In this document: positions 24,791 to 38,975 of the stretch, piece after piece
Position numbering within the stretch: the first letter of the stretch is position 1
Layout of the letters: every line of letters begins with the position of its first letter
Assembly (NCBI RefSeq): GCF_900142565.1
Contig: NZ_FRBH01000003.1
Span: forward strand, 186,001 to 250,000
From: Chishuiella changwenlii
GTDB lineage: Bacteria > Bacteroidota > Bacteroidia > Flavobacteriales > Weeksellaceae
Direction: 5' to 3'
Length of the DNA stretch: 64,000 nucleotides
Made by a program: the position numbers and the translations under genes
Notes under the pieces: generated by a model
The model's input: the letters and a program-made list of their open reading frames with translations, nothing else
Databases searched by the model: none
What the model was told of the DNA's origin: nothing

Positions 24791-24916
24791 TTTTGTAAAC
24801 CAATACCTCTATACTATATTATTTCGTCTTGTTTGTAGAGGCGGTAAATATAAAATTTTAATTTATATTAATTTAGTTTTCTATTTCAAATTGATGAATA
24901 TGGATTTATTTGAAAT

Positions 24917-24950
24917 AAAAACCTCATCAGATTATTTTGATGAGGTTTTT
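24917..24950 (-). terminator. Terminator at the end of the island 1 operon
   Basis: Perfect 13-bp stem AAAAACCTCATCA / TGATGAGGTTTTT with an 8-nt loop. It lies 28 bp to the left of the att-like repeat, as the other terminator hairpin does at the two other copies. Confidence 0.85.
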
Positions 24951-24978: not shown

Positions 24979-25045
24979 TTACTTCTTAATACAGAAAGTG
25001 TGAATTCCTTTATTTATCTAAAGCGTAGGGGAGTGAGGTGTAGTT
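24979..25045. repeat. att-like repeat copy A (mnmE 3'-end-like core plus left island end)
   Basis: TTACTTCTTAATACAGAA (24979-24996) differs at two positions from the mnmE-end sequence at copy B. It is followed by ~50 bp (…GTAGGGGAGTGAGGTGTAG…) that match 30863-30911 with 7 mismatches. It marks the boundary between backbone and island 1. Confidence 0.7.
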
Positions 25046-25100: not shown

Positions 25101-26138
25101 TTATATATCCCCATTACTTTTATATTCTTCTAGTTCTTTATAAAAATCACTTTTGAATTTATGTAAAGGTATATTTTGTATATTCTTGTCTGTATACGAT
25201 GTTTCAGAAATAAACGATTCTAAATTATCAGAAATATCTTTTTCAGTTAGTTTTGAAATTTGCATTTTATAAGATGGAGAATTAAATTTTTTGTATCTAT
25301 CCAATAGATTTACTATTGGTGATTTATATTCTTTATATAACGAAGTTAATTCTAATCTACTTTCCAATGTTGGATTGATATTATCTATGATTAAATCATC
25401 CATTTTGTTAAGTTTCGCTTCTCCATTGCTAATATCAATAACATTTTTAAAATTAAACTTTGGAATTTGATGATTATCAAATGGATTAAAATTAAAATTA
25501 TTATCGGTAGCATCTGATTTTCTTTGATTGCAAAGAGAACAAACAGGAATTAAATTATTTAAACTTACACTGATTAGGGCATTTTTACTTTTAGGATATA
25601 TATGATCTAAATTCCCATTTAAATACATCTTCATTTTTCCTGTATAAATTGTAGTATATTGTGCTAAACAGTAATGGCAATTACTTGCTTCTCGTTTCGA
25701 ATAATATAAAATCAATCTATCTTTTCTTTCAGAGTAATTGAATACAGATTCTAAATAAGTATTTAAATTTAAAAGTTCATTCAATTCGTTATTTATTTTA
25801 GACTTTTCATTGGAATTTAAATTAGTGTCATTCTTTTGTTTTTCTAAATCTTTTATTTTTTTATCATTTTTCAATTCTTTTCTTTGAAATGATATATTTT
25901 CAAGAGAAATTTGATTTAATTTTTTTACTGTTTCTAAATTAGCCATTACAAAAGAATCCGTTGAATTAACGTCAATTGAAATTACATTTTCTAAACTCGA
26001 AAAAAAAGTAGTTAAATTACTTATTGAGTATTTTTTTAACTCTATTAATTTTTTTTTTATTTTTTTATCAATTTTCTTATATCTATTTATCAAGTCCTTG
26101 TCGAGGTTAGTAAATTTATTTTCATTAATTTGTATCAT
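25101..26138 (-). CDS. HNH endonuclease, PtuB-like
   Basis: 345 aa. The N-terminal ~120 residues are Lys/Asn-rich and helical or coiled-coil. The HNH core is CHYC (~152-155), LDHIYPKSKN (~177-186), LNNLIPVCSLCNQRKSD (~190-206), so both zinc-knuckle pairs and the catalytic DH are intact. It overlaps the upstream AAA ATPase gene by 14 bp. An ATPase of this type next to an HNH nuclease is the composition of Septu (PtuA/PtuB) anti-phage systems. The protein is longer than the small PtuB proteins I know of. Strong terminator downstream. Confidence 0.82.
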   Translation of the reverse strand: MIQINENKFTNLDKDLINRYKKIDKKIKKKLIELKKYSISNLTTFFSSLENVISIDVNSTDSFVMANLETVKKLNQISLENISFQRKELKNDKKIKDLEKQKNDTNLNSNEKSKINNELNELLNLNTYLESVFNYSERKDRLILYYSKREASNCHYCLAQYTTIYTGKMKMYLNGNLDHIYPKSKNALISVSLNNLIPVCSLCNQRKSDATDNNFNFNPFDNHQIPKFNFKNVIDISNGEAKLNKMDDLIIDNINPTLESRLELTSLYKEYKSPIVNLLDRYKKFNSPSYKMQISKLTEKDISDNLESFISETSYTDKNIQNIPLHKFKSDFYKELEEYKSNGDI

Positions 26139-28269
26139 TTTTAGAACGTTTTTGCTTAATTTTTTGTAATCTCTCTATCTCTTTTTTTAATGCATCATCA
26201 GATAGCTTATCTTCAATTTTCTTTTTGATAACACCTTTAAGAAATGGATCTCCTACAAGATTAATTATAGACCAATCTTCTTCCTCTATTGGATCTTTTA
26301 TTAAAATATCATTTATCTTTTTAGATACAAAAGCACCAATTGCACCATTTTCAAGAAAGAATTCATCTTTCAATAAGTCATAAATGTTAGCTGCAAAGGA
26401 ATTGATTTTATCAGTAGATTCAGGTTTTCCTTCATTAAGTTTCAAAATATTTTGAGATGGAATATCTGAAAGAATAAACGGTGAGTGGGTTAGAAAACAA
26501 ATGTTAATTGATTCTATTCCTTCATTTTCTTTAGTTTTAATTAATTCTAATGAATCTAATATATTTTTAAGAATCTGCCTTTGCATTTCAGGATGATAGT
26601 ATAATTCAATTTCGTCCAAAATAATGCTTACATTCTTGTAAACCAATCTTGTATTTTTTGAAGAGAATGATGATTGAAGATTATAAAGATGATACAAGAC
26701 AGTGTTAATGTTAAATATCATCTGTTGTTCACCTGAGCTTAATTGACTTAAGAGAATACGTTCTTTATCAACTATGGATAATTCAAAATCGATATTAAAA
26801 ATACTTGGCGGCAAATAATTCATTAATTCTAGTACATTTAATGAATTTGATTTCTCCTCCTCTGAATGAGATTTATTTTCAAGAATGAATGCAACAAATT
26901 CATCGCTAGTAAATGAGCATGTTTTAAGGACTTCAAGTTGGAAGATAGCGTCAAGTTTTTTAGAATTTTCTGCGTACCTAATATAATTTACAACTTGTTT
27001 TATTTTTTTTGTTATGTGTGAATTATCTTCAAGTATAAAATTTTGAAAATATTCTTCTTCACTTTGGGATGAACTATCAAACTCTTTAAAGATTATAGAA
27101 TGATAATTCCGTCTAATTTTCTTTAGTTTTCTCTCTAAATACCCCACAGCAATATCAAAGTGCTTGATCTTTGCAAAATTATTTTCATTAACAATGTTTT
27201 TTATTAAAAAGTGAGAACTTGATTGCTGTAATCCATCATTATTAAAGTTCAATAAAGCCGGATAGCTTTTAGGTTTAATAGAAAAGTTAATTGTTCTAAT
27301 TTTATATTTGTCTAATAGCTTGTATTCTTCTTTGTTATTCTGACTTTTTACAAGATAATAAGCCAAATTAAACATTAATCTTTCTTTAGATAAATTTAGC
27401 TCATTATTTATATCATAAATACCTTCATCACGCATAGGATTTATTACAACAGGAGTTTTGTATCCATCATTTTTATGAAATAACGTGTCAATCCATCCCC
27501 CTATAATATTTGAATTTAATGAATGATGTGAGTAGTTTAAATTGATTGAGTAGAAAAATTTATCAAATTTAAAATTAGAACTGATATTTAAACCTTTATA
27601 ATCCTTACAAGTCAATTTTCCATTTATAAATTCTAATATATAAATATGATTTTCTAACTCATAAATTAGAGCCATGTTAAGCTCCTTTTGTATAAGATTT
27701 TCATTCTCTAAAGCTTCATTGTAGGTGTTTTTAATTAAATGCAACTTGTCATTTAAAGATTGAAGAAGCGAATTTTTATAATTTGATTTTTTATTTTTTA
27801 AAATTACTTGGATATTATATTTTTCTTGATATTGAATCCCTAGAGAATAATTCTCTTTTTCACTATTTATAAATTTAATATCTCTCTCTAATAATTTTAA
27901 TTTATCTTGAACAATATTTGAATATTTCTGTAATCCGATTTCATCATCTTCTTTCAAAGAAGAAATCGCATACACAAAATAATAAAAAAGCTCTATTAAC
28001 GCACTTTTACCTGAACCGTTTTTTCCAACAACAGCAGATATATTTATCTTGATTCCATTATCAAGATTGTACATAGTATTTGGAACATTACATCTATTTA
28101 CTGTAATGGCATTTACTGAGGAATTTTTATCATTAAGTTCGACAGTATAATTATTATATAGTAAATACGGAGTTCCAATTTTTAAATTTTTCCGGAATTT
28201 CTGGTTACAATCCTTAAGGGGGACTATACCGATTAATTTAAAGCCGTTATGATTATTTACATCGTCCAT
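26125..28269 (-). CDS. AAA family ATPase, PtuA/SMC-like
   Basis: 714 aa from ATG 28269. A TTG at 28347 would add 26 residues and leave only 10 bp after the previous gene, so it remains possible. ABC/SMC-type ATPase motifs: Walker A GKNGSGKSA (~83), a long helical insert (~105-480), signature LSSGEQQM (~510) and Walker B SIILDEIEL (~550), then THSPFILSD (~600). The P-loop motifs are intact. Predicted sensor/ATPase subunit of the adjacent HNH nuclease, as in Septu. The C-terminus is very basic (LQKIKQKRSKN). Confidence 0.82.
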   Translation of the reverse strand: MDDVNNHNGFKLIGIVPLKDCNQKFRKNLKIGTPYLLYNNYTVELNDKNSSVNAITVNRCNVPNTMYNLDNGIKINISAVVGKNGSGKSALIELFYYFVYAISSLKEDDEIGLQKYSNIVQDKLKLLERDIKFINSEKENYSLGIQYQEKYNIQVILKNKKSNYKNSLLQSLNDKLHLIKNTYNEALENENLIQKELNMALIYELENHIYILEFINGKLTCKDYKGLNISSNFKFDKFFYSINLNYSHHSLNSNIIGGWIDTLFHKNDGYKTPVVINPMRDEGIYDINNELNLSKERLMFNLAYYLVKSQNNKEEYKLLDKYKIRTINFSIKPKSYPALLNFNNDGLQQSSSHFLIKNIVNENNFAKIKHFDIAVGYLERKLKKIRRNYHSIIFKEFDSSSQSEEEYFQNFILEDNSHITKKIKQVVNYIRYAENSKKLDAIFQLEVLKTCSFTSDEFVAFILENKSHSEEEKSNSLNVLELMNYLPPSIFNIDFELSIVDKERILLSQLSSGEQQMIFNINTVLYHLYNLQSSFSSKNTRLVYKNVSIILDEIELYYHPEMQRQILKNILDSLELIKTKENEGIESINICFLTHSPFILSDIPSQNILKLNEGKPESTDKINSFAANIYDLLKDEFFLENGAIGAFVSKKINDILIKDPIEEEDWSIINLVGDPFLKGVIKKKIEDKLSDDALKKEIERLQKIKQKRSKNDTN

Positions 28270-28357
28270 AATCTTGTAGTAGTTAATTCTAATTATTAGT
28301 TTTTTCTTAAACCATGATGTTGAATACTTGTTCTGGTTAATATTCAACGAATTTTGT

Positions 28358-30274
28358 TTAATTTAAAGAAATTAATTTATCAAAAGCTTCTTTTATTTTG
28401 ACAGGAATATGTTCTTGATGATTTATTACATTTAAAATAAATTCGGCAGATTCATTTCCCTTGTCTGGTATAGAGATAAAACTATCTATATCATTTCCAT
28501 CTTCTTGCCATTTAGTTTTTAAAGCATATGATAACTTCTTAAAAAATTTTTTATTACTTTGAACATTATCTCCTTCAGGAATAGAGTCAAAAATAGTTTG
28601 TATAAAACTATCGTTAATAATTAACGTTTCATCATAAAACTGATTTACGATTTCCGTCCACAAACCAATTGCAATTGAATCTTCAATATCTTGTTTTCCA
28701 ACAAAAAAGACATTCTCAGTTTTATCAATAGCATCCATTTGAAAACTCATATCATTATCGAATAGAAGAATCATTGAATTTTCAATTTTATTGAATCCTT
28801 GTGTTATGGCTCTTAAAACTTCTTTATTTAATCTCCACTTATCCTTTCCTTCAATATTAATTAATTGAATATTATCTTCAATAAAAGTTTTACCAGTATA
28901 TATTTTATATAAAGCGGGTATTAAATATTGTTCTGTATCTCCTTCCACAATTAGAAATTTATCATGAAATAAGAAATCAGAATTTTTAACTTTTAAACTA
29001 TCAAAAATACTTTCTACATCTTCACAACTTGATAAGTTTGTATATCCTGATTCTAACTTATATGTATTCAAAATATCATTAGTATTAGCTTTATCAATAA
29101 ATATTGTTGAGTGAGTACTTATTAAAGTTTGAACGTTTCCTCGAGATAACCCTTTTAAATTATCAAAAAACTCTCTTTGCGCACCAGGATACAAATGAGT
29201 TTCAGGTTCGTCAAATGCCCAAATATGGTTTTTAATTCCTGATTGTTCTGATCTTTCAGCTTTTGCCTTAATTAAAGAAAACCAAATTTTTCTTTTTAAA
29301 CCTTCTTCTTGGTTATCTAAATGTATCAATCCATCACTTTGTAATTTTTGTACCATTATATCAGAAACTTTTTCTTTAACTTCAAAATGAATTTTACTAT
29401 TAATTGACTGTATTTCTGGTGCTACAGAGGAAATAGTTTCTTGAATTCTGTTGAACTCTTCATTTATAGCTTCCTCTGCTAATTGTGCTTTTTCTTGAGC
29501 TGTTACTTTTATAGGCTGAATAAATTCTTCTATTTTGTCTTTCATCAAACTAGTTGCTATAGAAATAACTTCTTCCATAGAACAGTTCCAATCAAAATAT
29601 TTATACTCAGGAAAAATATCAGAATCACTTTTTGCAGGTTTATATTCAATCCAAAATCTTTCTAATTCTATTTTACTATTAATAGCTCTTATTAACTCCA
29701 AATTAGAAAATCTTCCAAGGGCATTAGAATTAGTAATATCGTCAGAAGTAATATTCAACTCTCTTTTTATTATATTTAATTTCGCTGCTGTCTCACTATA
29801 AATATGTTTGTAATCATTATTTGAATTTTGAGCTAAATATCCAGTTGATGTATTAGCATTAATCTTCTTGATTAACCAAATGGAATTATCAATCAAATTT
29901 TCTAACATCCAACTTAAGCTGTTAGATAAATCTATACTTTCAAATAAATCTAATTCATTTTCTTGTAATCGTAATTTACCTAATACATATATGCTGGTAT
30001 TATCATATTCTTCAAAAACAGGTAAATTCCTTTCTTCGAAAATAGAAACAAATTCTTCTTGATCTAATGTAGAATTTGATAAATCACTTTTATTATTTCC
30101 TTCTTGACTAAATGAACAATTAACTTTATTGAATAATAACTCTATCCCTTTTAACAAAGTAGATTTCCCACAATCGTTTAATCCAATAAAAATATTCGGA
30201 TTATTTTCTTTTAGCTTGATATCTAATATTTTACAGCTTTTATAATTTATAATTACTACCTCTTCTAAATACAT
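28358..30274 (-). CDS. OLD-family ATP-dependent endonuclease (ATPase + TOPRIM)
   Basis: 638 aa. N-terminal ABC-type ATPase: Walker A GLNDCGKST (31-39) and Walker B region IWAFDEPETHLYP (~350), with THSTIFID (~390). C-terminal TOPRIM nuclease: FLIVEGDTEQYL (~440) and LLFDND (~500). OLD nucleases act in phage exclusion; GajA of Gabija belongs to this family. The usual class 2 partner, a UvrD-like helicase (GajB), is absent here. Its start codon overlaps the KTSC stop (TAATG), so translation is coupled. Confidence 0.87.
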   Translation of the reverse strand: MYLEEVVIINYKSCKILDIKLKENNPNIFIGLNDCGKSTLLKGIELLFNKVNCSFSQEGNNKSDLSNSTLDQEEFVSIFEERNLPVFEEYDNTSIYVLGKLRLQENELDLFESIDLSNSLSWMLENLIDNSIWLIKKINANTSTGYLAQNSNNDYKHIYSETAAKLNIIKRELNITSDDITNSNALGRFSNLELIRAINSKIELERFWIEYKPAKSDSDIFPEYKYFDWNCSMEEVISIATSLMKDKIEEFIQPIKVTAQEKAQLAEEAINEEFNRIQETISSVAPEIQSINSKIHFEVKEKVSDIMVQKLQSDGLIHLDNQEEGLKRKIWFSLIKAKAERSEQSGIKNHIWAFDEPETHLYPGAQREFFDNLKGLSRGNVQTLISTHSTIFIDKANTNDILNTYKLESGYTNLSSCEDVESIFDSLKVKNSDFLFHDKFLIVEGDTEQYLIPALYKIYTGKTFIEDNIQLINIEGKDKWRLNKEVLRAITQGFNKIENSMILLFDNDMSFQMDAIDKTENVFFVGKQDIEDSIAIGLWTEIVNQFYDETLIINDSFIQTIFDSIPEGDNVQSNKKFFKKLSYALKTKWQEDGNDIDSFISIPDKGNESAEFILNVINHQEHIPVKIKEAFDKLISLN

Positions 30275-30477
30275 TACAATTCTTGATATCTAAATTTATT
30301 AACAATATTTGAAGCTAAATAAGAACCATGTGAAGATGCATTCATTAATCCATGATAAATATTCTCAGGAATATTATAATATTGGTAAACTCTTCCGTTA
30401 TTAAATTCCACTTCTAAAATTGAGTTTTGATATCCTATACTTCGGATATTACTTGATGATACTCTTTGTCTTTCCAT
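30274..30477 (-). CDS. KTSC-domain small protein
   Basis: 67 aa, the whole of it a KTSC domain (VSSSNIRSIGYQNSILEVEFN, VYQYYNIPENIYHGLMNASSHGSYL). KTSC domains occur at the C-terminus of some lysyl-tRNA synthetases and as stand-alone peptides in phages and mobile elements; the role is unknown. It is the first gene of the operon and its stop overlaps the OLD nuclease start by one base (TAATG), suggesting a stoichiometric partner, adaptor or inhibitor of that nuclease. Confidence 0.85.
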   Translation of the reverse strand: MERQRVSSSNIRSIGYQNSILEVEFNNGRVYQYYNIPENIYHGLMNASSHGSYLASNIVNKFRYQEL

Positions 30478-30775: not shown

Positions 30776-30862
30776 ATAAAAACAAAAACAGCGATAAACT
30801 AAAAGTTTACCGCTGTTTTTTTTATATGTTTTTTCAAATATTTTTTACTTCCCAATACAGAA
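30776..30862. repeat. Right island end plus att-like core, copy B
   Basis: 87 bp identical to 37509-37595 except for three bases. It includes a hairpin AAAAACAGCG...CGCTGTTTTT (the mnmE-type terminator), the stretch TATATGTTTTTTCAAATA and the mnmE-end core TACTTCCCAATACA. The core reads FCIGK-stop on the minus strand, as at the true end of mnmE. Confidence 0.85.
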
Positions 30863-30911
30863 AGTGTAAATCCCTTTATTAATGAACAGTGTAGGGGAGT
30901 GAGGTGTAGTT
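30845..30911. repeat. att-like core plus left island end, copy B
   Basis: 67 bp matching copy A (24979-25045) with about nine mismatches. Together with the 87-bp repeat it shows a right-end/core/left-end junction between two tandem elements. Confidence 0.75.
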
Positions 30912-31117
30912 TTGGTGAAGTGAAATTTATTAAAGTTTAACATTTAATTACTCAATATTTTTCTACTTTTCTACAGATAACAAAATTATTGTAGAAGTAT
31001 AGTATATATTTTTTTGATTTGGTACATACAAATATATGGTTGCTATAAATTATTTAGATGTAATTATGTTAATATGCTTCAATTTAACAAATAATAATTA
31101 TCACTAACGAGAGTAAA

Positions 31118-31138
31118 ATCCTCCTAAATTAGGAGGAT
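31118..31138 (-). terminator. Terminator of the island 2 operon
   Basis: ATCCTCCTA / TAGGAGGAT, 9-bp stem, with TTTTACTC following on the minus strand. Confidence 0.78.
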
Positions 31139-31153
31139 CTAACACAACTTAAC

Positions 31154-31534
31154 TCAAACTACCTCATCTTCCAAAATAAACTCCATTGTTTTTTCTACAT
31201 GCTTTTTCCCGGCTAAACCTTTCGCAAAAAAAGCATTAGTGCCAAAATCGTACGTTTTCATATACGCATTGTTGATAGGCTCTTCCAATTCATATAAGTC
31301 TTCAGGAATTTTCGCTTTTATATTAAATACTTTATCTCCACTTTTAATCTTACCATTTTCATTATTTAAAAAAGTATTGTACCAGCTTCGTTCAGCTATT
31401 CCCCACGATCTTGCGAAAATTCTATCATCTACTATTACCATCCAAATGTCTAGAAAACGATGATCATCTGTACCAGCTTTTATTCCTGTCAATATCTCTG
31501 AATCAATTGATTCTTTAAATTCTTGTTTTGTCAT
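31154..31534 (-). CDS. DUF2255-like protein
   Basis: 126 aa from ATG 31534 (MTKQEFKESI). An upstream in-frame ATG at 31579 overlaps the preceding gene and is less likely. Conserved features WMVIVDDRIFARSWG and RSWYNTFL, then FNIKAKIPEDLYE, resemble DUF2255, a family of small proteins of the pyridoxamine-phosphate-oxidase-like split-barrel style. No known reaction. Last gene of the redox operon, 25 bp after the NTF2-like gene. Confidence 0.68.
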   Translation of the reverse strand: MTKQEFKESIDSEILTGIKAGTDDHRFLDIWMVIVDDRIFARSWGIAERSWYNTFLNNENGKIKSGDKVFNIKAKIPEDLYELEEPINNAYMKTYDFGTNAFFAKGLAGKKHVEKTMEFILEDEVV

Positions 31535-31559
31535 AACATTTCTATTTCTTATTTTAAAA

Positions 31560-32534
31560 TTATATAAATCGATCAGCATAATCTTTTAAACCTGCAAAAC
31601 TTCTGAAGTTATGTGGTATGTAATTGAATTTTTCCATTTTCCACTGACCATCTTCTTTGACCATTGTTAATGGATAAAACGCTGCATAATTCTTCTCTTC
31701 TTCTAATTTCTCAAAATACTGTGGCACTATTCTACCGACAATCATATGAGCACTAATTTCGTCATCATTAATTGCAACCTTAATCGGCTCCGCAAAATGC
31801 TGCATCTGTGTCCACGGTTGTCTAAAATCCTTTATTTGCCCAATAATATTAGATAAACCTTTCAAATCTCCCATTGGTGTTAAATTACCTTCAGCAGCTC
31901 TAGAAAATGTACTTATTAATAAACCAATATCATTTTGATCAATCGCCCATGAATATCTTGAATAAGCTTCCATAATCCAATCTTTTTCTGTTCCTATTGG
32001 AATCAAATTTTTGTACTTATTCCAGGGTGCATCTAGCTCACTTACAATCACAGGAGTAGTATCACCAGGTTGCCAAAATCTCTGCCCTCTTATTGGAGAC
32101 CACTTTTGAAGTAAATGTGCATCACCTTCAATCCAGTTAACGGAAAATTTGAAATCAGTTATTTCCATTGTCTCTGAATCTTTCATTAGAATCTCAATGA
32201 TTGATGTCGCTCCAAAAGTTGCGATACTGTCATTTTCATCACTAATTATTCCATATAGATAGAAACTGAAAACCACTTTATTTTCTTTGCCATCAGGGAT
32301 GCCTGCTATAAAATGATTACTGCTTGCTAAGCTTAATGAATGGTTTGATCTATCTTCAAACAGATTTTTAGCAACATTTACTTTTCCTTTAATTACCCCA
32401 TGAACATTACTTCTAAAATTCACAAAAGGAGCAAGATCATCTGCAATTTTGTTTTCGTCTGAATTTGCCCAATGATTTATAAAATCTTTTAGAAAGATTT
32501 CAATATCAGAACGATGATATCGTGTCGTTTCCAT
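31560..32534 (-). CDS. NTF2/SnoaL-like protein, duplicated
   Basis: 324 aa from ATG 32534 (METTRYHRSD); a GTG at 32567 would add 11 unlikely residues. Two SnoaL/NTF2-like halves are visible: ~10-150 (FLKDFINHWANSDENKIADDLAPF) and ~180-320 (IMEAYSRYSWAIDQNDIGLLISTFSRAAEG). Such folds serve as isomerases, dehydratases or ligand binders in oxidative pathways. Its place after three oxidoreductases suggests action on the same small molecule. Function is inferred only from context. Confidence 0.7.
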   Translation of the reverse strand: METTRYHRSDIEIFLKDFINHWANSDENKIADDLAPFVNFRSNVHGVIKGKVNVAKNLFEDRSNHSLSLASSNHFIAGIPDGKENKVVFSFYLYGIISDENDSIATFGATSIIEILMKDSETMEITDFKFSVNWIEGDAHLLQKWSPIRGQRFWQPGDTTPVIVSELDAPWNKYKNLIPIGTEKDWIMEAYSRYSWAIDQNDIGLLISTFSRAAEGNLTPMGDLKGLSNIIGQIKDFRQPWTQMQHFAEPIKVAINDDEISAHMIVGRIVPQYFEKLEEEKNYAAFYPLTMVKEDGQWKMEKFNYIPHNFRSFAGLKDYADRFI

Positions 32535-32587
32535 ACTTTTATATTGTTTGTACACAATAATTAACACTAAGGTTTCAAGTCGATACC

Positions 32588-33688
32588 TTATTTGGTTTGA
32601 TGAAGAAATGGATAATCAGTATATCCTACCGAACCCATTCCGTAGAAAGTTGTTCTGTCTGCCTGATTTAACGGAGCATTCTGCTCAAAACGTTCAACTA
32701 AATCGGGGTTCGCAATAAATGGAACACCGAAAGAGACTAAATCTGCATAGCCTTCTTCCAATGCTTTATTTGCAGAATCTCTGGTGAATCCACCATTAAT
32801 CATATAAGTTCCTGTATATAGCTTACGGTAATATTTCGCCGTTTCAATAATATTTTTCTCCTTATTCGCCGGATCAAGTGAAAATCCTGAAATATGAAGA
32901 TAAGCCAATCCATAATCACTCAGCTTTTTACAGATATATTCAAAAAAAGCAACTGTTTCATCGTCTTTTACAATACCAAAAGTATTGGTAAGATCCGGCG
33001 CAATCCTGACACCAACTTTATTTAAACTAACTTTTTCTTTTATACTATCTAAAATATCAAACAAAAATCTTGCTCTGTTTTCTATACTTCCTCCATATTG
33101 ATCTTTTCTTTGATTAGAACATTTCGCAAAAAACTGATGCAAAAGATAGCCATTGGCCGCATGGATCTCTACGCCGTCAAAACCACTTTTTATAGCATTT
33201 ACCGCTGCTTGCTGAAAATCTAAAATTGTCTGTTCTATATCTTCAATAGACATTTCTTTTGGAGTTACTGTATCTGTAAAACCATTTTTAGTGTAAGACT
33301 GAAAATCTGGGTTTATTGCTGATGGAGCTAACGGCAACTTTCCATCTAAAAGATCAGGATGCGAAATTCTTCCTACGTGCCATAATTGAGCAAAGATTTT
33401 ACCTCCTTTCTCGTGGACAGCTGCGGTTACTTTTTTCCAGCCTTCTAATTGTGCTTCGGAGTAAATACCCGGTACATCAATATACCCTGTTGCATTGCTG
33501 TTTATGGGAGCTCCTTCAGATATTATTAATCCGGCAGAAGCTCTTTGTCTGTAGTATTCGACATTTAGTTCTTCAGGTGCTAATTCTTCATTATTACACC
33601 TTGTTCTCGTTAAAGGTGCCATTACAACCTTATTCTTAAGGTTTAAATTATTGTTATTGAATTCTTTTAATAATGTTAGTTTTTCCAT
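32588..33688 (-). CDS. Old yellow enzyme family alkene reductase (NemA-like)
   Basis: 366 aa FMN barrel. Motifs: VVMAPLTRTR (~22-31), LWHVGRISHPD (~101-111), HAANGYLLHQFF (~183-194; substrate-binding H-x-x-N) and YGGSIENRARF (~205-215). These enzymes reduce activated C=C bonds, nitro compounds and nitrate esters with NAD(P)H, often as detoxification. Second oxidoreductase of the operon, 12 bp after the luciferase-like gene. Family sure; substrate unknown. Confidence 0.92.
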   Translation of the reverse strand: MEKLTLLKEFNNNNLNLKNKVVMAPLTRTRCNNEELAPEELNVEYYRQRASAGLIISEGAPINSNATGYIDVPGIYSEAQLEGWKKVTAAVHEKGGKIFAQLWHVGRISHPDLLDGKLPLAPSAINPDFQSYTKNGFTDTVTPKEMSIEDIEQTILDFQQAAVNAIKSGFDGVEIHAANGYLLHQFFAKCSNQRKDQYGGSIENRARFLFDILDSIKEKVSLNKVGVRIAPDLTNTFGIVKDDETVAFFEYICKKLSDYGLAYLHISGFSLDPANKEKNIIETAKYYRKLYTGTYMINGGFTRDSANKALEEGYADLVSFGVPFIANPDLVERFEQNAPLNQADRTTFYGMGSVGYTDYPFLHQTK

Positions 33689-33700
33689 TTATATAAGTAA

Positions 33701-34651
33701 TTATCTGAATTGTGGTATGATGTATTCACTGAACTCCTGTATCATCTCTTCAGCAGGTCTTCGGGTCGGTTTTGGATTTAAGACTGCGTGTGACAACCCT
33801 TCCTGTTGCTGTTGTTCCCAAAACTCAATTAAAGCTTTTCGGCCTCCCTGAACATAATTTCCCGCAAAAAATATTGGTGCATCTGGGTTTTCATTGAGGT
33901 CAAAAAAATGAGCATAACCATAAGGTTTATCAACTCCATTAGTGGCCTTGTTCCACAGATCTCTTCTTAAAGAAACTTTTCTGGCATTCTCTCCGTGCCA
34001 TAGCCATCCATCCATATTCTCCCCAATCCAACTCAGATCCTGTCCTCCACGGCCTATTGATATTGTCGGAATGATACCGGAAAGCGGTTTTGGAATTAAA
34101 TCAATAGAGCCATTAAATGATCCGTAAAACTCAGTATCAAAGGAAGGAAAGCTTTCTTCCGTAACCTTACGAATAACTTCGCGAGCTTCGCGGAAACGTT
34201 CAACACGATTTTCGAAATTGCTTCCGAATGCGGGATATTCATTGTAACGATCTCCTGAAGCTAGTCCTAAAATAAAACGTCCTCCAGAAAGCTGATCTAA
34301 AGTCGTTGCTTGCTTTGCAACAATCAGAGGATCTCTCAGCGGTAAAACTATGCCAGCTGTTCCAATCGCTATCCGTTTTGTTGTAGCTGCCAAAATTCCG
34401 CCATAAACCATTGGATCATAAATTTGCCCAGTATCTCCGAAATTGGGATCTAAGAAAGGAACATCACGCAGCCAAATTGCATCGATACCACCTTCATCTG
34501 CTGCTTTTACGGTATTTGCAAAACCTTCTGCATCTGGTATGGGACTATCAGGATAACCTGCCATTGGGGCAACAAAACCAAAAGTTAATTTTCCCGGACG
34601 AAACACCTGAGAAAATCCTTTATGCTGTTTCAATAATTCTTGTCTGTCCAT
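33701..34651 (-). CDS. Luciferase-like (LLM class) oxidoreductase, TIGR03571 type
   Basis: 316 aa. LLM-family barrel with AIWLRDVPFLDPNFGDTGQIYDPM (split here: ~59-82), GTASIVLP-like GTAGIVLPLRDPL and DQLSGGRFILGLASGDR. The pattern matches the TIGR03571 subfamily. These use reduced flavin (FMN or F420) to oxidise or desulfonate small molecules. G+C content is plainly higher than in the backbone genes. Five bp separate it from the upstream PRISE-type gene, 12 bp from the old yellow enzyme gene, so all are one operon. Confidence 0.9.
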   Translation of the reverse strand: MDRQELLKQHKGFSQVFRPGKLTFGFVAPMAGYPDSPIPDAEGFANTVKAADEGGIDAIWLRDVPFLDPNFGDTGQIYDPMVYGGILAATTKRIAIGTAGIVLPLRDPLIVAKQATTLDQLSGGRFILGLASGDRYNEYPAFGSNFENRVERFREAREVIRKVTEESFPSFDTEFYGSFNGSIDLIPKPLSGIIPTISIGRGGQDLSWIGENMDGWLWHGENARKVSLRRDLWNKATNGVDKPYGYAHFFDLNENPDAPIFFAGNYVQGGRKALIEFWEQQQQEGLSHAVLNPKPTRRPAEEMIQEFSEYIIPQFR

Positions 34652-34656
34652 AGCTA

Positions 34657-35712
34657 TTAAGGAATTATATTTTTATCTTTAAGATTCTGGAATGTACTCA
34701 GTAAATTACTTAATGTATCTCCATTCATTTCGTGGAAGCCAAATCTTCTCGCCTTGTTTACATCAAGAAAAGCATCTACTTCAACATTAAAAATAAAGTC
34801 ACCAAATCCCCATTGAACCAATGAATCTAAACTGTGCGGATCTAGATTGTATTTCTCTACTATTTCATTCCAAATTTTAGATTTCCCAGGCATATATTCG
34901 GTAAGAGAAAATGTTTGTGGTTCGGCTACTTCAACCCCAAAATAGTCTCCTATTTTTGGCCAAATCTGTGACCAGCGGAAAACATCTCCATTTGTGATGT
35001 TGAATATTCCGTCTTCTGCTTTAGTTTCAAGTGAAGCCCATTCCAGTGATTTAGCCAAAACATCCGCACCTGTTACATTAACTAAGGCATTGTAAGCCTT
35101 ATAAGAACCCGGAAAACGCATTGGAATTCCTTCTTCTTTACAGATGGTTGCATAAACTGCAATAAGATTAGCCAAATTCATAGGTGTATTAACTGTAAAT
35201 CCAATTACTATGTCTGGTCTTAATGCTGTCCATGACCAATTTTTACCTTGAGATTGCTGGCGAAGAAAATCCTCCTGATCATAGTAGAAATTAGGAGTCA
35301 TACTACGAGGATCAGTTTCGTATGCCGGAGTTTTATAAATACCTAAATGTGCACCATATGCTTTACCTCCCTGAATGAATAATACTCTCTTGAGATTAGG
35401 TGCTATTTCCTCCAAAGCAGGGATAAAGATTTTTAGTAAATTTACATTAGCTTCAGCCTGTTGATAAGGATCTTTTCTTTCAGTATAAGCATTGAAAAAG
35501 ATATGGGTTACATTCTTCAGTTGTTCAGAAAAAGAATATATCTGCTCACTATTTTCCAAATCCAATGCAATAAAGTCGGCAGTACTTTCATAGTTTAATG
35601 ACTGGCGTGCTGATGCAATTACATTCCAATCATCAGATTTTGTAAGATGCTCGGTAAGATGTCTTCCGATGATACCATTTGCTCCTACAATTAATGCTGT
35701 ATTATTTTTCAT
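34657..35712 (-). CDS. SDR-family oxidoreductase, PRISE (progesterone 5-beta-reductase/iridoid synthase-like)
   Basis: 351 aa extended SDR. N-terminal ALIVGANGIIGRHL nucleotide-binding motif, FNAYTER, NFYYDQEDFL (catalytic Tyr context) and NITNGDVFRWSQIWP, which is typical of PRISE enzymes. These reduce the C=C bond of enones or related substrates with NADPH. First gene of the redox operon and divergent from the LysR regulator, the likely controller. Confidence 0.85.
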   Translation of the reverse strand: MKNNTALIVGANGIIGRHLTEHLTKSDDWNVIASARQSLNYESTADFIALDLENSEQIYSFSEQLKNVTHIFFNAYTERKDPYQQAEANVNLLKIFIPALEEIAPNLKRVLFIQGGKAYGAHLGIYKTPAYETDPRSMTPNFYYDQEDFLRQQSQGKNWSWTALRPDIVIGFTVNTPMNLANLIAVYATICKEEGIPMRFPGSYKAYNALVNVTGADVLAKSLEWASLETKAEDGIFNITNGDVFRWSQIWPKIGDYFGVEVAEPQTFSLTEYMPGKSKIWNEIVEKYNLDPHSLDSLVQWGFGDFIFNVEVDAFLDVNKARRFGFHEMNGDTLSNLLSTFQNLKDKNIIP

Positions 35713-35787
35713 TTTTTTGATGAATTAATTATGGTACAAATTTCTGTATAATACACTTATAATAATAATATTAAAAATTAGCAATAA

Positions 35788-35810
35788 CTATTAAAATTTT
35801 AATAGATTTG
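35788..35810 (+). promoter_or_regulatory. LysR operator overlapping the lysR -7 box
   Basis: Perfect 18-bp palindrome CTATTAAAATTTTAATAG (35788-35805). It overlaps TAGATTTG (35803-35810, TAnnTTTG), which ends 3 bp before ATG 35814. The lysR transcript would be leaderless and LysR binding would repress it. Confidence 0.6.
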
Positions 35811-35813
35811 TAT

Positions 35814-36707
35814 ATGGTTAATTTTGAATGGTACCGGACTTTTGTAGCAATTTATCAAAAAGGTAATTTAACGAAAGCTGCACAAGAATTATTAATTTCA
35901 CAACCTAACGTGAGTGTTCATCTGGCTGCGCTTGAGCAATATGTGGGAGATAAACTATTTGACAGAATGCCTCGTAAAATGGTGCCTACTGAGTCGGGCA
36001 GACAATTGTACACTCAAGTAATCGGTTCAGTAGAAAATCTGACATCGATAGAGGCTTTATTTACGAAGAAAGCCTTAGTAAAACGTTCTGTTATAAAATT
36101 AGGTGCACCCATTGAGTTTTTTTATTCTGAAATTACCCCCAACCTTAACAAAACTACTTCTCAAATACACGCAACATTTGGTCTTGCTAAAGAACTTACT
36201 CAACAGCTTATTGATGGAGACCTTGATTTTATTATTGCCAGTCAGAAAACAGCAGATCACAAACAGATTGTTTATGAAGAAATCCTGAAGGAAAATTTTA
36301 TCATTATAGCTGATAAAACATTGGATATTAAAGTATTTAACGATTATATTGAGCAAGAGAATTTTATCGAAGCAGAACAATGGCTATTACAGCAGGATTG
36401 GTTTGCATATAGCGCAGATCTTGCTTACATACGAAGATTTTGGCTTAAGAATTTTAATAAAAGACCTGTCCTGATTCCAAAGTACATTGTTCCTAACCTT
36501 ATTACCATTATCAAATCTATGAGTGAAGGTTCGGGTATCAGTGTTGTTTCAGACTTTCTTGCAAAAGATTATATCAAAGAAAAAAAAGTCATTTCGATTT
36601 GGAATGGCAAAGCCAAAGCCGAAAATACAATTTATCTTGCTTACGATAAAAGTAAAATATCCAATCAAAAGATAGAAGAAATGAAAATGTTATTAGATAG
36701 CAACTAA
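35814..36707 (+). CDS. LysR-family transcriptional regulator
   Basis: 297 aa from ATG 35814 (MVNFEWYRTF); the TTG at 35808 lies inside the promoter box. N-terminal winged helix with KGNLTKAAQELLISQPNVSVHLAALEQ, then a periplasmic-binding-protein-like effector domain. Divergent from the redox operon, with a perfect palindrome between them. It probably senses an electrophile or other small molecule and controls that operon. Confidence 0.9.
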   Translation: MVNFEWYRTFVAIYQKGNLTKAAQELLISQPNVSVHLAALEQYVGDKLFDRMPRKMVPTESGRQLYTQVIGSVENLTSIEALFTKKALVKRSVIKLGAPIEFFYSEITPNLNKTTSQIHATFGLAKELTQQLIDGDLDFIIASQKTADHKQIVYEEILKENFIIIADKTLDIKVFNDYIEQENFIEAEQWLLQQDWFAYSADLAYIRRFWLKNFNKRPVLIPKYIVPNLITIIKSMSEGSGISVVSDFLAKDYIKEKKVISIWNGKAKAENTIYLAYDKSKISNQKIEEMKMLLDSN

Positions 36708-36735
36708 GCAAAGTCATAGATTAAAATCTTCTATC

Positions 36736-37401
36736 TTACAGAGTTTTATGTACAATTAGAATGAGCTTTTGAGAAATGAAATACAGCCATCTAATGTCAA
36801 TGATGAATATGAAGAGAGCAAACCAATCAAAACTGTCTTTAGTATTCCAATTATTCGGATTGATTTTATCCAAATAATCGTACTTCAACAATAAAACTGA
36901 ACTTGAAACCCATAGAATAAAACTAATTGAAATAATCCATATTTTCCAATCAGGAATATTAATAATTCTTTTAAAACGAGATTCTGGAATTTCATCTGGT
37001 TTAACGTGATAAAATATTTGTTGTAATATGCTGACTTCTAATAATCTTTCTAATTCTTCTTTTTGTAATTTTTTTTCAGTAGAAGTTAATACATCATCAC
37101 TTTTTTTCTTATTAAATGAAGCTAATGATATATTTAAAAAATTCTTATTGAGGATTTAATTCTTTAAAAGTTCCAATAATAGTACTTTTTCCCGAACCAT
37201 ACCCACCTGTTAGAGCTATATTATTAATACCTTTAGTATCTATTGTCTCATTTAGTTTATCCAAATAAGGTTGTATCTTTTCTATATCTTTCTCATCCTT
37301 TAAAATTTTAGGAGCCAAAGAACTTATTATAGATTCTGTTTTTTGAGAATCAACTTTTTTTTTTTATTGAAGAAGTTTAGAAAAGACAAATTAATATTCA
37401 T
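36736..37401 (-). pseudogene. Decayed YobI-like P-loop NTPase gene
   Basis: Minus strand, starting MNINLSFLNFFNKKKK at ATG 37401. A frameshift in an 11-A tract (37355-37365) leads into a frame reading SLAPKILKDEKDIEKIQPYL, then NNIALTGGYGSGKSTIIGTF (Walker A GGYGSGKST). A second shift near 37160 leads into FLNISLASFNKKKSD..., a polar region and a membrane segment (WKIWIISISFILWVSSSVLL), ending at 36736. The order P-loop, linker, membrane helices matches the N-terminus of YobI-type NTPases, which are normally over 1000 aa. The rest is lost. Confidence 0.7.
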
Positions 37402-37577
37402 ATTAAGATAATTTATGTTTTTTATTAAATTGATTATTGATAAAAACACATTAATACTAAAATACAAATAAAGAAATAACCAAGTATATATTCTTATGGA
37501 AAACCATAATAAAAACAAAAACAGCGATAAACTAAAAGTTTACCGCTGTTTTTGTTATATGTTTTTTCAAATATTTT
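37402..37577. other. Right end of island 2 and mnmE 3' flank
   Basis: Contains the 87-bp right-end repeat and the mnmE terminator hairpin. The ORF reading here is low-complexity and not supported. Confidence 0.5.
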
Positions 37578-37595
37578 CTACTTCCCAATACAAAA
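37509..37595. repeat. Right island end plus mnmE 3' end, copy C
   Basis: 87 bp with three mismatches to 30776-30862. It includes the hairpin CAGCGATAAACT / AGTTTACCGCTG, which serves as the mnmE terminator, and the last codons of mnmE (FCIGK-stop). Confidence 0.85.
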
Positions 37596-38975
37596 CTTTC
37601 CGAAGATGGTACCTAATATATCTTGGTCAACATCTATTTCGCCAGTAATATGACCTAAATAAGTTAACGCCTCACGAATGTCCATTGCTAATAAATCTCC
37701 AGGAAGTCCCATGTCCATACCTTGTTTTATTTTTCCGATTTGTGATAGCGTATTTTGTAAAGCCTCCAAATGACGAGAATTTGTAACAATTGTATCGTCT
37801 TGATTAGTTCCTTTTAACTTTATTTGATGAATTAATTGTTCTTTTAAAGCTTCGATGTTAAACTGATCTTTTGCAGAGATTTCTAAATGAACAACATCTT
37901 TAAATTCTTCTTTAATAGCGGCCGGAATTACAGCTTCTGTGTTCGAAACATCAATCTTATTTGCAACATTGAATAGAATTTTTCCACGACGTTGTAAATC
38001 ATCTAACTGATTCGCAATTTGATTATCTTCTGTGATATTCGAATCATACAAATAAATAATAATTGAAGCATTGTCTATTTTTTCGAATGTCTTCTCAATT
38101 CCAATACGTTCTATCGAATCACCAGCTTCTCTAATTCCTGCTGTATCAATAAAACGAAATCCAATTCCATCTATGTAAATAGTTTCTTCTATTGTATCGC
38201 GTGTTGTTCCTTCTATGTCCGAAACAATAGCACGTTCTTCGTTTAATAATGCATTTAATAAAGTCGATTTACCAGCATTTGGCGCACCAATAATTGCTAC
38301 GGGAACACCATTTTTTATCACATTTCCAAAAGCAAAAGAATCTGCTAAACGTTTTAGGATATTTTGTAACTGATTTAGTAATGCATAAAATTGTGTACGA
38401 TCTGCGAACTCTACATCTTCCTCAGAAAAATCTAATTCCAATTCCATTAGCGCAGCGAAATTAATCATCTGATCTCTTAAATCTTTTATCTGATTAGAGA
38501 ATCCTCCACGCATTTGTTTAATTGCAATTTCGTGGGATGCCTTAGAGTCTGATGCAATAAGATCTGCCACAGCTTCTGCTTGTGTTAAATCCATTTTACC
38601 ATTCCAAAAAGCACGGAAAGTATATTCTCCAGGATTAGCATTTCGAATACCAATTTTATTTAAAAGTTCTAAAACTTTTTGTTGAATATAGATAGAACCA
38701 TGTGTAGAAATCTCTACAACATCTTCTCCTGTATAAGAATGTGGGTTTTTAAAAATAGAAAATAAAGCCTCATCAACAATTGTTTCACCATCCATTATAT
38801 AACCTAAATTGATGGTATGCGAAGCTGCATCAGTCAAAGATTTAGTTGAATTAAATTTTGATTGATAGATTTCTGCAACTTTGGTAATTGCTTCTGGTCC
38901 AGAAATACGAATCACCGCAATTGCACCCATTCCATTAGCCGTAGCTAATGCACAAATTGTATCATTGTTTAGCAT
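37578..38975 (-). CDS. mnmE: tRNA uridine-5-carboxymethylaminomethyl(34) synthesis GTPase MnmE
   Basis: 465 aa, full length. N-terminal tetrahydrofolate-binding domain; G1 motif GAPNAGKSTLLNALL (~229-243), G2 region, DTAGIRE (~277), NKID (~340); C-terminal FCIGK with the conserved Cys needed for function. With MnmG it installs the cmnm5 group on U34 of several tRNAs. Start ATG 38975 follows a -7 box by 4 bp, so the mRNA is probably leaderless. Its 3' end is repeated at two further places to the left, making it the apparent insertion target of two islands. Confidence 0.97.
   Translation of the reverse strand: MLNNDTICALATANGMGAIAVIRISGPEAITKVAEIYQSKFNSTKSLTDAASHTINLGYIMDGETIVDEALFSIFKNPHSYTGEDVVEISTHGSIYIQQKVLELLNKIGIRNANPGEYTFRAFWNGKMDLTQAEAVADLIASDSKASHEIAIKQMRGGFSNQIKDLRDQMINFAALMELELDFSEEDVEFADRTQFYALLNQLQNILKRLADSFAFGNVIKNGVPVAIIGAPNAGKSTLLNALLNEERAIVSDIEGTTRDTIEETIYIDGIGFRFIDTAGIREAGDSIERIGIEKTFEKIDNASIIIYLYDSNITEDNQIANQLDDLQRRGKILFNVANKIDVSNTEAVIPAAIKEEFKDVVHLEISAKDQFNIEALKEQLIHQIKLKGTNQDDTIVTNSRHLEALQNTLSQIGKIKQGMDMGLPGDLLAMDIREALTYLGHITGEIDVDQDILGTIFGKFCIGK

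Follow-up and report, generated by a model that had tools for sequence, protein, structure and literature searches.

Adjacent KTSC-OLD and Septu-like AAA-HNH gene pairs, probable defence modules, in a tandem mnmE array of Chishuiella changwenlii

OLD nucleases are classed by their partners, and those that stand alone are poorly understood. In Gabija, the OLD-type ATPase-TOPRIM nuclease GajA is accompanied by the UvrD-like helicase GajB. Type I-B retrons employ a class 3 OLD nuclease as effector together with a reverse transcriptase. Class 1 OLD nucleases (P2 Old, Thermus OLD and YbjD) are defined by isolated single genes (PMC10568477). Septu and the PADLOC candidate PDC-M62 have in common an SMC-like ATPase gene adjoining an HNH nuclease gene, and PDC-M62 calls in Bacillus cereus group genomes mostly coincide with DefenseFinder Septu (PMC11811056). 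In some SIR2-HerA and HerA-DUF4297 systems a KTSC gene or domain is joined to the defence ATPase. Islands of the SGI1 type at trmE are documented to insert in tandem and to bear phage-resistance cargo (PMC7449626).

The locus described here consists of four genes in a 64-kb window, the whole stretch of C. changwenlii DNA that was analysed (Table 1). Its OLD nuclease matches the PADLOC Old profile best and also matches GajA (1.8e-26). It is related to GajA, whereas GajB is absent, as had been noted from the sequence, and a KTSC gene is found in its place; Pfam detects no helicase among the operon genes or their immediate neighbours. The top match to Old and the lack of a helicase or reverse transcriptase partner are likenesses to class 1, but here a KTSC gene lies upstream and an AAA-HNH pair downstream of the OLD gene. 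The likeness to type I-B retrons lies in the OLD protein as effector and in its nearest relative, which adjoins a UG39-type reverse transcriptase; the difference is that the operon and the scanned neighbours contain no reverse transcriptase. Compared with SIR2-HerA and HerA-DUF4297, the ATPase joined to KTSC is OLD and not HerA.

Table 1. Operon genes, attachment repeats and neighbouring features (positions in the 64-kb window).
Feature	Position	Strand	Evidence
KTSC-domain small protein, 67 aa, operon gene 1	30274-30477	-	Pfam PF13619 4e-22
OLD-family ABC ATPase + TOPRIM nuclease, 638 aa	28358-30274	-	AAA_15 4e-30, OLD-like_TOPRIM 5e-11; PADLOC Old 1e-37
AAA/SMC-like ATPase, PDC-M62A (Septu PtuA-like), 714 aa from ATG	26125-28269	-	AAA_21 1e-6; PADLOC PDC-M62A 3e-38
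HNH nuclease, PDC-M62B (Septu PtuB-like), 345 aa	25101-26138	-	HNH 1e-5; PADLOC PDC-M62B 1e-16
Flanking repeat A: same build as repeat B, att core 24979-24996 degenerate TTCTGTATTAAGAAGTAA	24979-25068	-	alignment of 18 copies
KTSC-bearing element left end, with terminator hairpin	30776-30844	-	hairpin z -4.5
Flanking repeat B: upstream element's right end, then exact mnmE-type att core 30845-30862 TTCTGTATTGGGAAGTAA	30845-30934	-	
Upstream tandem element: LysR regulator, PRISE, luciferase-like, Oxidored_FMN, SnoaL and DUF2255 genes	30863-37577	.	profile scans
mnmE (trmE), anchor gene	37578-38975	-	Pfam MnmE_helical, TrmE_N

The original prediction described a tightly spaced KTSC, OLD, AAA and HNH layout, and an ORF check of the window reproduced its coordinates and spacing. 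All four reading frames are intact and lie on the minus strand. The KTSC stop codon and the OLD start codon overlap in TAATG, and the AAA and HNH genes overlap by 14 bp. The gap between the OLD and AAA genes is 88 bp with the ATG at 28269, or 10 bp with a TTG at 28347 that would extend the AAA ATPase to 740 aa; homologues begin at the FKLI stretch after that ATG, which favours the ATG and with it the 88-bp gap. The four genes are presumably co-transcribed. They encode the two nuclease modules that had been recognised, an OLD TOPRIM and an HNH, with catalytic motifs intact in both. Walker A (GLNDCGKS) and DEPETH motifs are intact in OLD and its TOPRIM residues E444 and D506/D508 are present; K37, D355/E356, E444 and D506/D508 are invariant in the alignment. 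The AAA ATPase retains GKNGSGKS, LSSGE, LDEIE and LTHS, and the HNH protein retains CxxC...DH...CxxC. Single-sequence searches of the PDB with OLD, AAA and HNH gave no match. The operon was also credited with a single terminator of its own, and this did not hold: the only strong one downstream (about 24913-24950) lies past the mnmE-type attachment repeat, which places it in the adjoining segment. An inverted repeat resembling an operator, ahead of KTSC (AACGTTAT/ATAACGTT, from 30543 and 30521), was rejected, as an equal arm arose in 18% of shuffles.

Relatives of the OLD nuclease are few. At E 1e-60 one other genome among 296 of the family carries one, at E 1e-12 they occur in 4 of 246 family genomes, and an alignment-based search across the phylum found them in 6 of 395 genomes (the last two counts include the genome itself). 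KTSC adjoins OLD in none of those other family or phylum genomes. On three related Streptomyces plasmids a KTSC gene precedes, by about 50 bp, a similarly built OLD gene, and a TOPRIM domain is found in the OLD of both annotated plasmids. These OLD proteins are about 20% identical to that of Chishuiella. Since the OLD proteins of the three plasmids share 87-88% identity with the query protein, the plasmids are counted as one lineage; the KTSC-OLD coupling has therefore been found twice, in the window and in one Streptomyces lineage. No KTSC match was found on the plasmids of eight more distant Streptomyces OLD genes, and no KTSC-OLD pair in phage or viral contigs, where KTSC lies near structural or other genes. 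The earlier statement that KTSC belongs to no named system stands for the defence libraries and literature searched. Judged by sequence, KTSC-OLD is a rare OLD-context variant that is unnamed in these sources.

KTSC is found in several other settings. The 67-aa protein aligns to PDB 7X8C and to residues 628-694 at the C-terminus of HerA in 8WIV, and KTSC forms the C-terminal domain of HerA (residues 628-696) in the HerA-DUF4297 deposits (8WIV and six further entries). A literature search for the code 8WIV found no paper; we infer that it is the deposit of PMC11291478, a study of HerA that describes a C-terminal hook and was not among the papers using the word KTSC in a literature search. HerA-KTSC-endoDNase variants have been mentioned as unpublished observations (PMC9503650). 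A KTSC gene directly follows SIR2-HerA in six loci, on plasmids of Rhizobium, Sphingomonas, E. coli, Pseudoalteromonas and Mesorhizobium and in one genome of the family, with the SIR2 and HerA assignments profile-checked in two of them; in one more family genome it follows HerA. On a haloarchaeal plasmid it follows E2-E1 genes. There (locus L113, 2180-5213) an E2 gene, a ThiF/E1 gene and an overlapping KTSC gene are arranged in order, and an integrase gene is close by. Further KTSC genes occur in unrelated settings or in phages, and 82 phage records contain a KTSC relative (e.g., MG592596.1, 52675-52875). KTSC is RNA-binding according to one paper and DNA-binding according to another. Its place behind SIR2-HerA and E2-E1, together with the HerA fusion, makes KTSC look like a small subunit that several defence machines have in common. 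Tentatively, KTSC may be a plug-in subunit of otherwise unrelated defence ATPase systems (SIR2-HerA, HerA-DUF4297, OLD and E2-E1), and KTSC-OLD may then be an OLD context beyond the stand-alone, Gabija and retron ones. A separate observation concerns two family genomes in which one island site (L092, 1985-11381; L094, 1144-11011) has the same flanking genes (87-98% identical) and different contents: SIR2-HerA-KTSC in one genome, and OLD with a UG39-type reverse transcriptase in the second. This is a module swap, and OLD with UG39 is a possible further pair.

These settings bear on what KTSC does beside OLD. If the OLD nuclease were toxic and KTSC its antidote or inhibitor, KTSC would be made first and would hold OLD in check until infection removes it, and a small upstream gene with a stop-start overlap is the usual layout of antitoxin and toxin. 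However, KTSC is the last gene in the SIR2-HerA and E1 loci and is fused in cis to HerA in 8WIV, and a working subunit fits such positions better than a labile inhibitor. We consider the antidote unlikely; gene positions and the HerA fusion suggest that KTSC would be a working subunit. It is just as doubtful that the OLD nuclease is a class 1 stand-alone enzyme with KTSC as a chance neighbour. The closest OLD protein (53% identical) belongs to a different genus of the family; it lies beside the UG39-type reverse transcriptase (3e-175) and lacks KTSC. Since KTSC is likewise missing beside the other OLD genes found in the phylum and in Streptomyces, the coupling could be opportunistic twice. Against this, KTSC directly upstream of OLD recurs independently in Streptomyces, and KTSC is repeatedly associated with other defence genes.

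The second pair is better represented. PDC-M62A and PDC-M62B are the leading PADLOC profiles for genes three and four, ahead of PtuA (3.5e-13) and PtuB (2.6e-8), which bears out the likeness to Septu first recognised in these two genes. They share with Septu and PDC-M62 the adjoining ATPase and HNH genes. They differ from Septu in that the PtuA profiles match more weakly, the NCBIfam PtuA model (retron Ec78) stays far under its cut-off (22.8 vs 500) and the ATPase is long. Relatives of the ATPase, counted at E 1e-20 with the genome itself included, are found in 39 of 246 genomes of the family. Among 29 such loci examined, an HNH gene lies close to that of the ATPase in 27, and neither OLD nor KTSC is present in any (profiles from OLD and KTSC alignments, 1.5-kb flanks); therefore AAA-HNH is a stand-alone pair of known kind. 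The PADLOC check thus divided the suggestion of a new system, since AAA-HNH is a listed candidate and KTSC-OLD has no name.

All four genes had been proposed to form one composite system, in which KTSC may restrain or target OLD; on this reading AAA-HNH would provide a second nuclease stage of the same response. Their tight order, the two overlaps, the common upstream region and the presence of both pairs within one att-bounded segment speak for this. Yet the pairs recur separately: the 29 AAA-HNH loci contain neither partner, and the KTSC-OLD pairs of the two annotated Streptomyces plasmids have no AAA-HNH next to them. The four-gene order was not found outside this locus, so that a comparison of neighbourhoods shows the pairs together here and apart elsewhere, and the 88-bp gap falls between them. 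A single four-component system therefore appears quite improbable. Even so, the four genes are packed so closely, with overlaps, that the pairs could still be functionally linked.

The operon fills a 5.9-kb segment between 90-bp direct repeats that are 79% identical and had gone unnoticed in the original prediction, and the mobile setting that had been proposed is borne out by the mnmE-type att cores with which these repeats bound the segment. The two flanking copies are the only matches to the repeat in the genome. The array attaches at the 3' end of mnmE (37578-37595), whose codons for FCIGK and stop also end the repeats. From the att core in mnmE itself (37578), the cores at 30845 and 24979 (the latter degenerate) lie downstream in the same orientation, and the nearer repeat is 6.7 kb from mnmE. 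The left end of the KTSC-bearing element is 98.6% identical over 69 bp to 37509-37577, directly past the mnmE stop codon. The repeats, together with the shared mnmE core and 69 bp, thus place the operon in the second of two segments inserted in tandem at mnmE; a search revealed no empty attachment site, and it is the repeats that indicate the insertion. The KTSC-bearing segment has a G+C content of 25%, against 29% in its surroundings. No integrase was found in the two elements of the window. At 36740-37400 there is an apparently broken P-loop NTPase gene, in which GGYGSGKST is followed by stops and frame changes.

Copies of the repeat occur in 12 of 14 genomes of the genus, with one to three in each. 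Copies in relatives separate HipA, Cas9-CRISPR with Phd, AbiEii (AbiE) and other cargo, with genes in either orientation. In one relative (L026, 4903-18074) mnmE-type repeats bound a HipA-type segment and, after it, a Cas9-CRISPR locus with a Phd antitoxin gene. Where relatives have mnmE and repeats on one contig, the repeats are downstream in the same orientation, at about 20 to 150 kb. Tyrosine integrase genes lie beside the mnmE core in three relatives (L207, 1651-2793; L210, 1632-2801; L215, 12658-13791) and are candidates for the enzyme that builds the array. Islands of the SGI1/MGIVchHai6 type resemble this array in that they integrate at the mnmE 3' end, do so in tandem and bring phage-resistance cargo, a comparison that concerns the attachment site only; the difference is that here the segments are small, lack an integrase of their own and belong to a different bacterial group. 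Other identities for the repeats were rejected. They are not integron attC sites, as single-stranded DNA folding is no better than in shuffles and their end is the mnmE C-terminus. As a small RNA they fit no Rfam family, and the strong hairpin is part of the terminator that lies past the repeat; a Rfam scan of the region gave no convincing match to a non-coding RNA. As a small peptide gene they have an in-frame start codon in some copies only. The idea of a constant chromosomal position, with the DUF2255 gene on one side and the AraC gene on the other, was rejected as well, since the AraC cluster of relatives is elsewhere, with no repeats nearby. That the segment is decayed cargo with no current defence function is highly improbable, for although its right attachment core is degenerate and the neighbouring element has a seemingly broken P-loop gene near 36750-37350, none of its four reading frames or catalytic motifs is broken.

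On balance, the segment of the tandem mnmE array probably holds two adjacent defence modules and not one four-gene system, and the two would act against phage independently. In the first module, the OLD nuclease would have KTSC as its partner, where other OLD nucleases stand alone or have the GajB helicase or a retron reverse transcriptase. KTSC may be a small subunit that binds nucleic acid or acts as an adaptor and so assists the OLD ATPase in recognising DNA or RNA of the phage, upon which the TOPRIM domain would cut and stop the infection. In the second module, the SMC-like ATPase would sense invading DNA and license the HNH nuclease.

A recurrent KTSC partner provides a testable handle on the activation of OLD nucleases. 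As KTSC follows or is fused to several defence ATPases, one KTSC system, such as KTSC-OLD or the SIR2-HerA-KTSC locus on plasmid A of E. coli strain C5, NZ_CP010123, could inform several. If KTSC is indeed a plug-in subunit, the KTSC genes carried by phages would be candidate decoys against KTSC-bearing defence systems. The mnmE array illustrates how defence and toxin-antitoxin modules are stacked in the genus.
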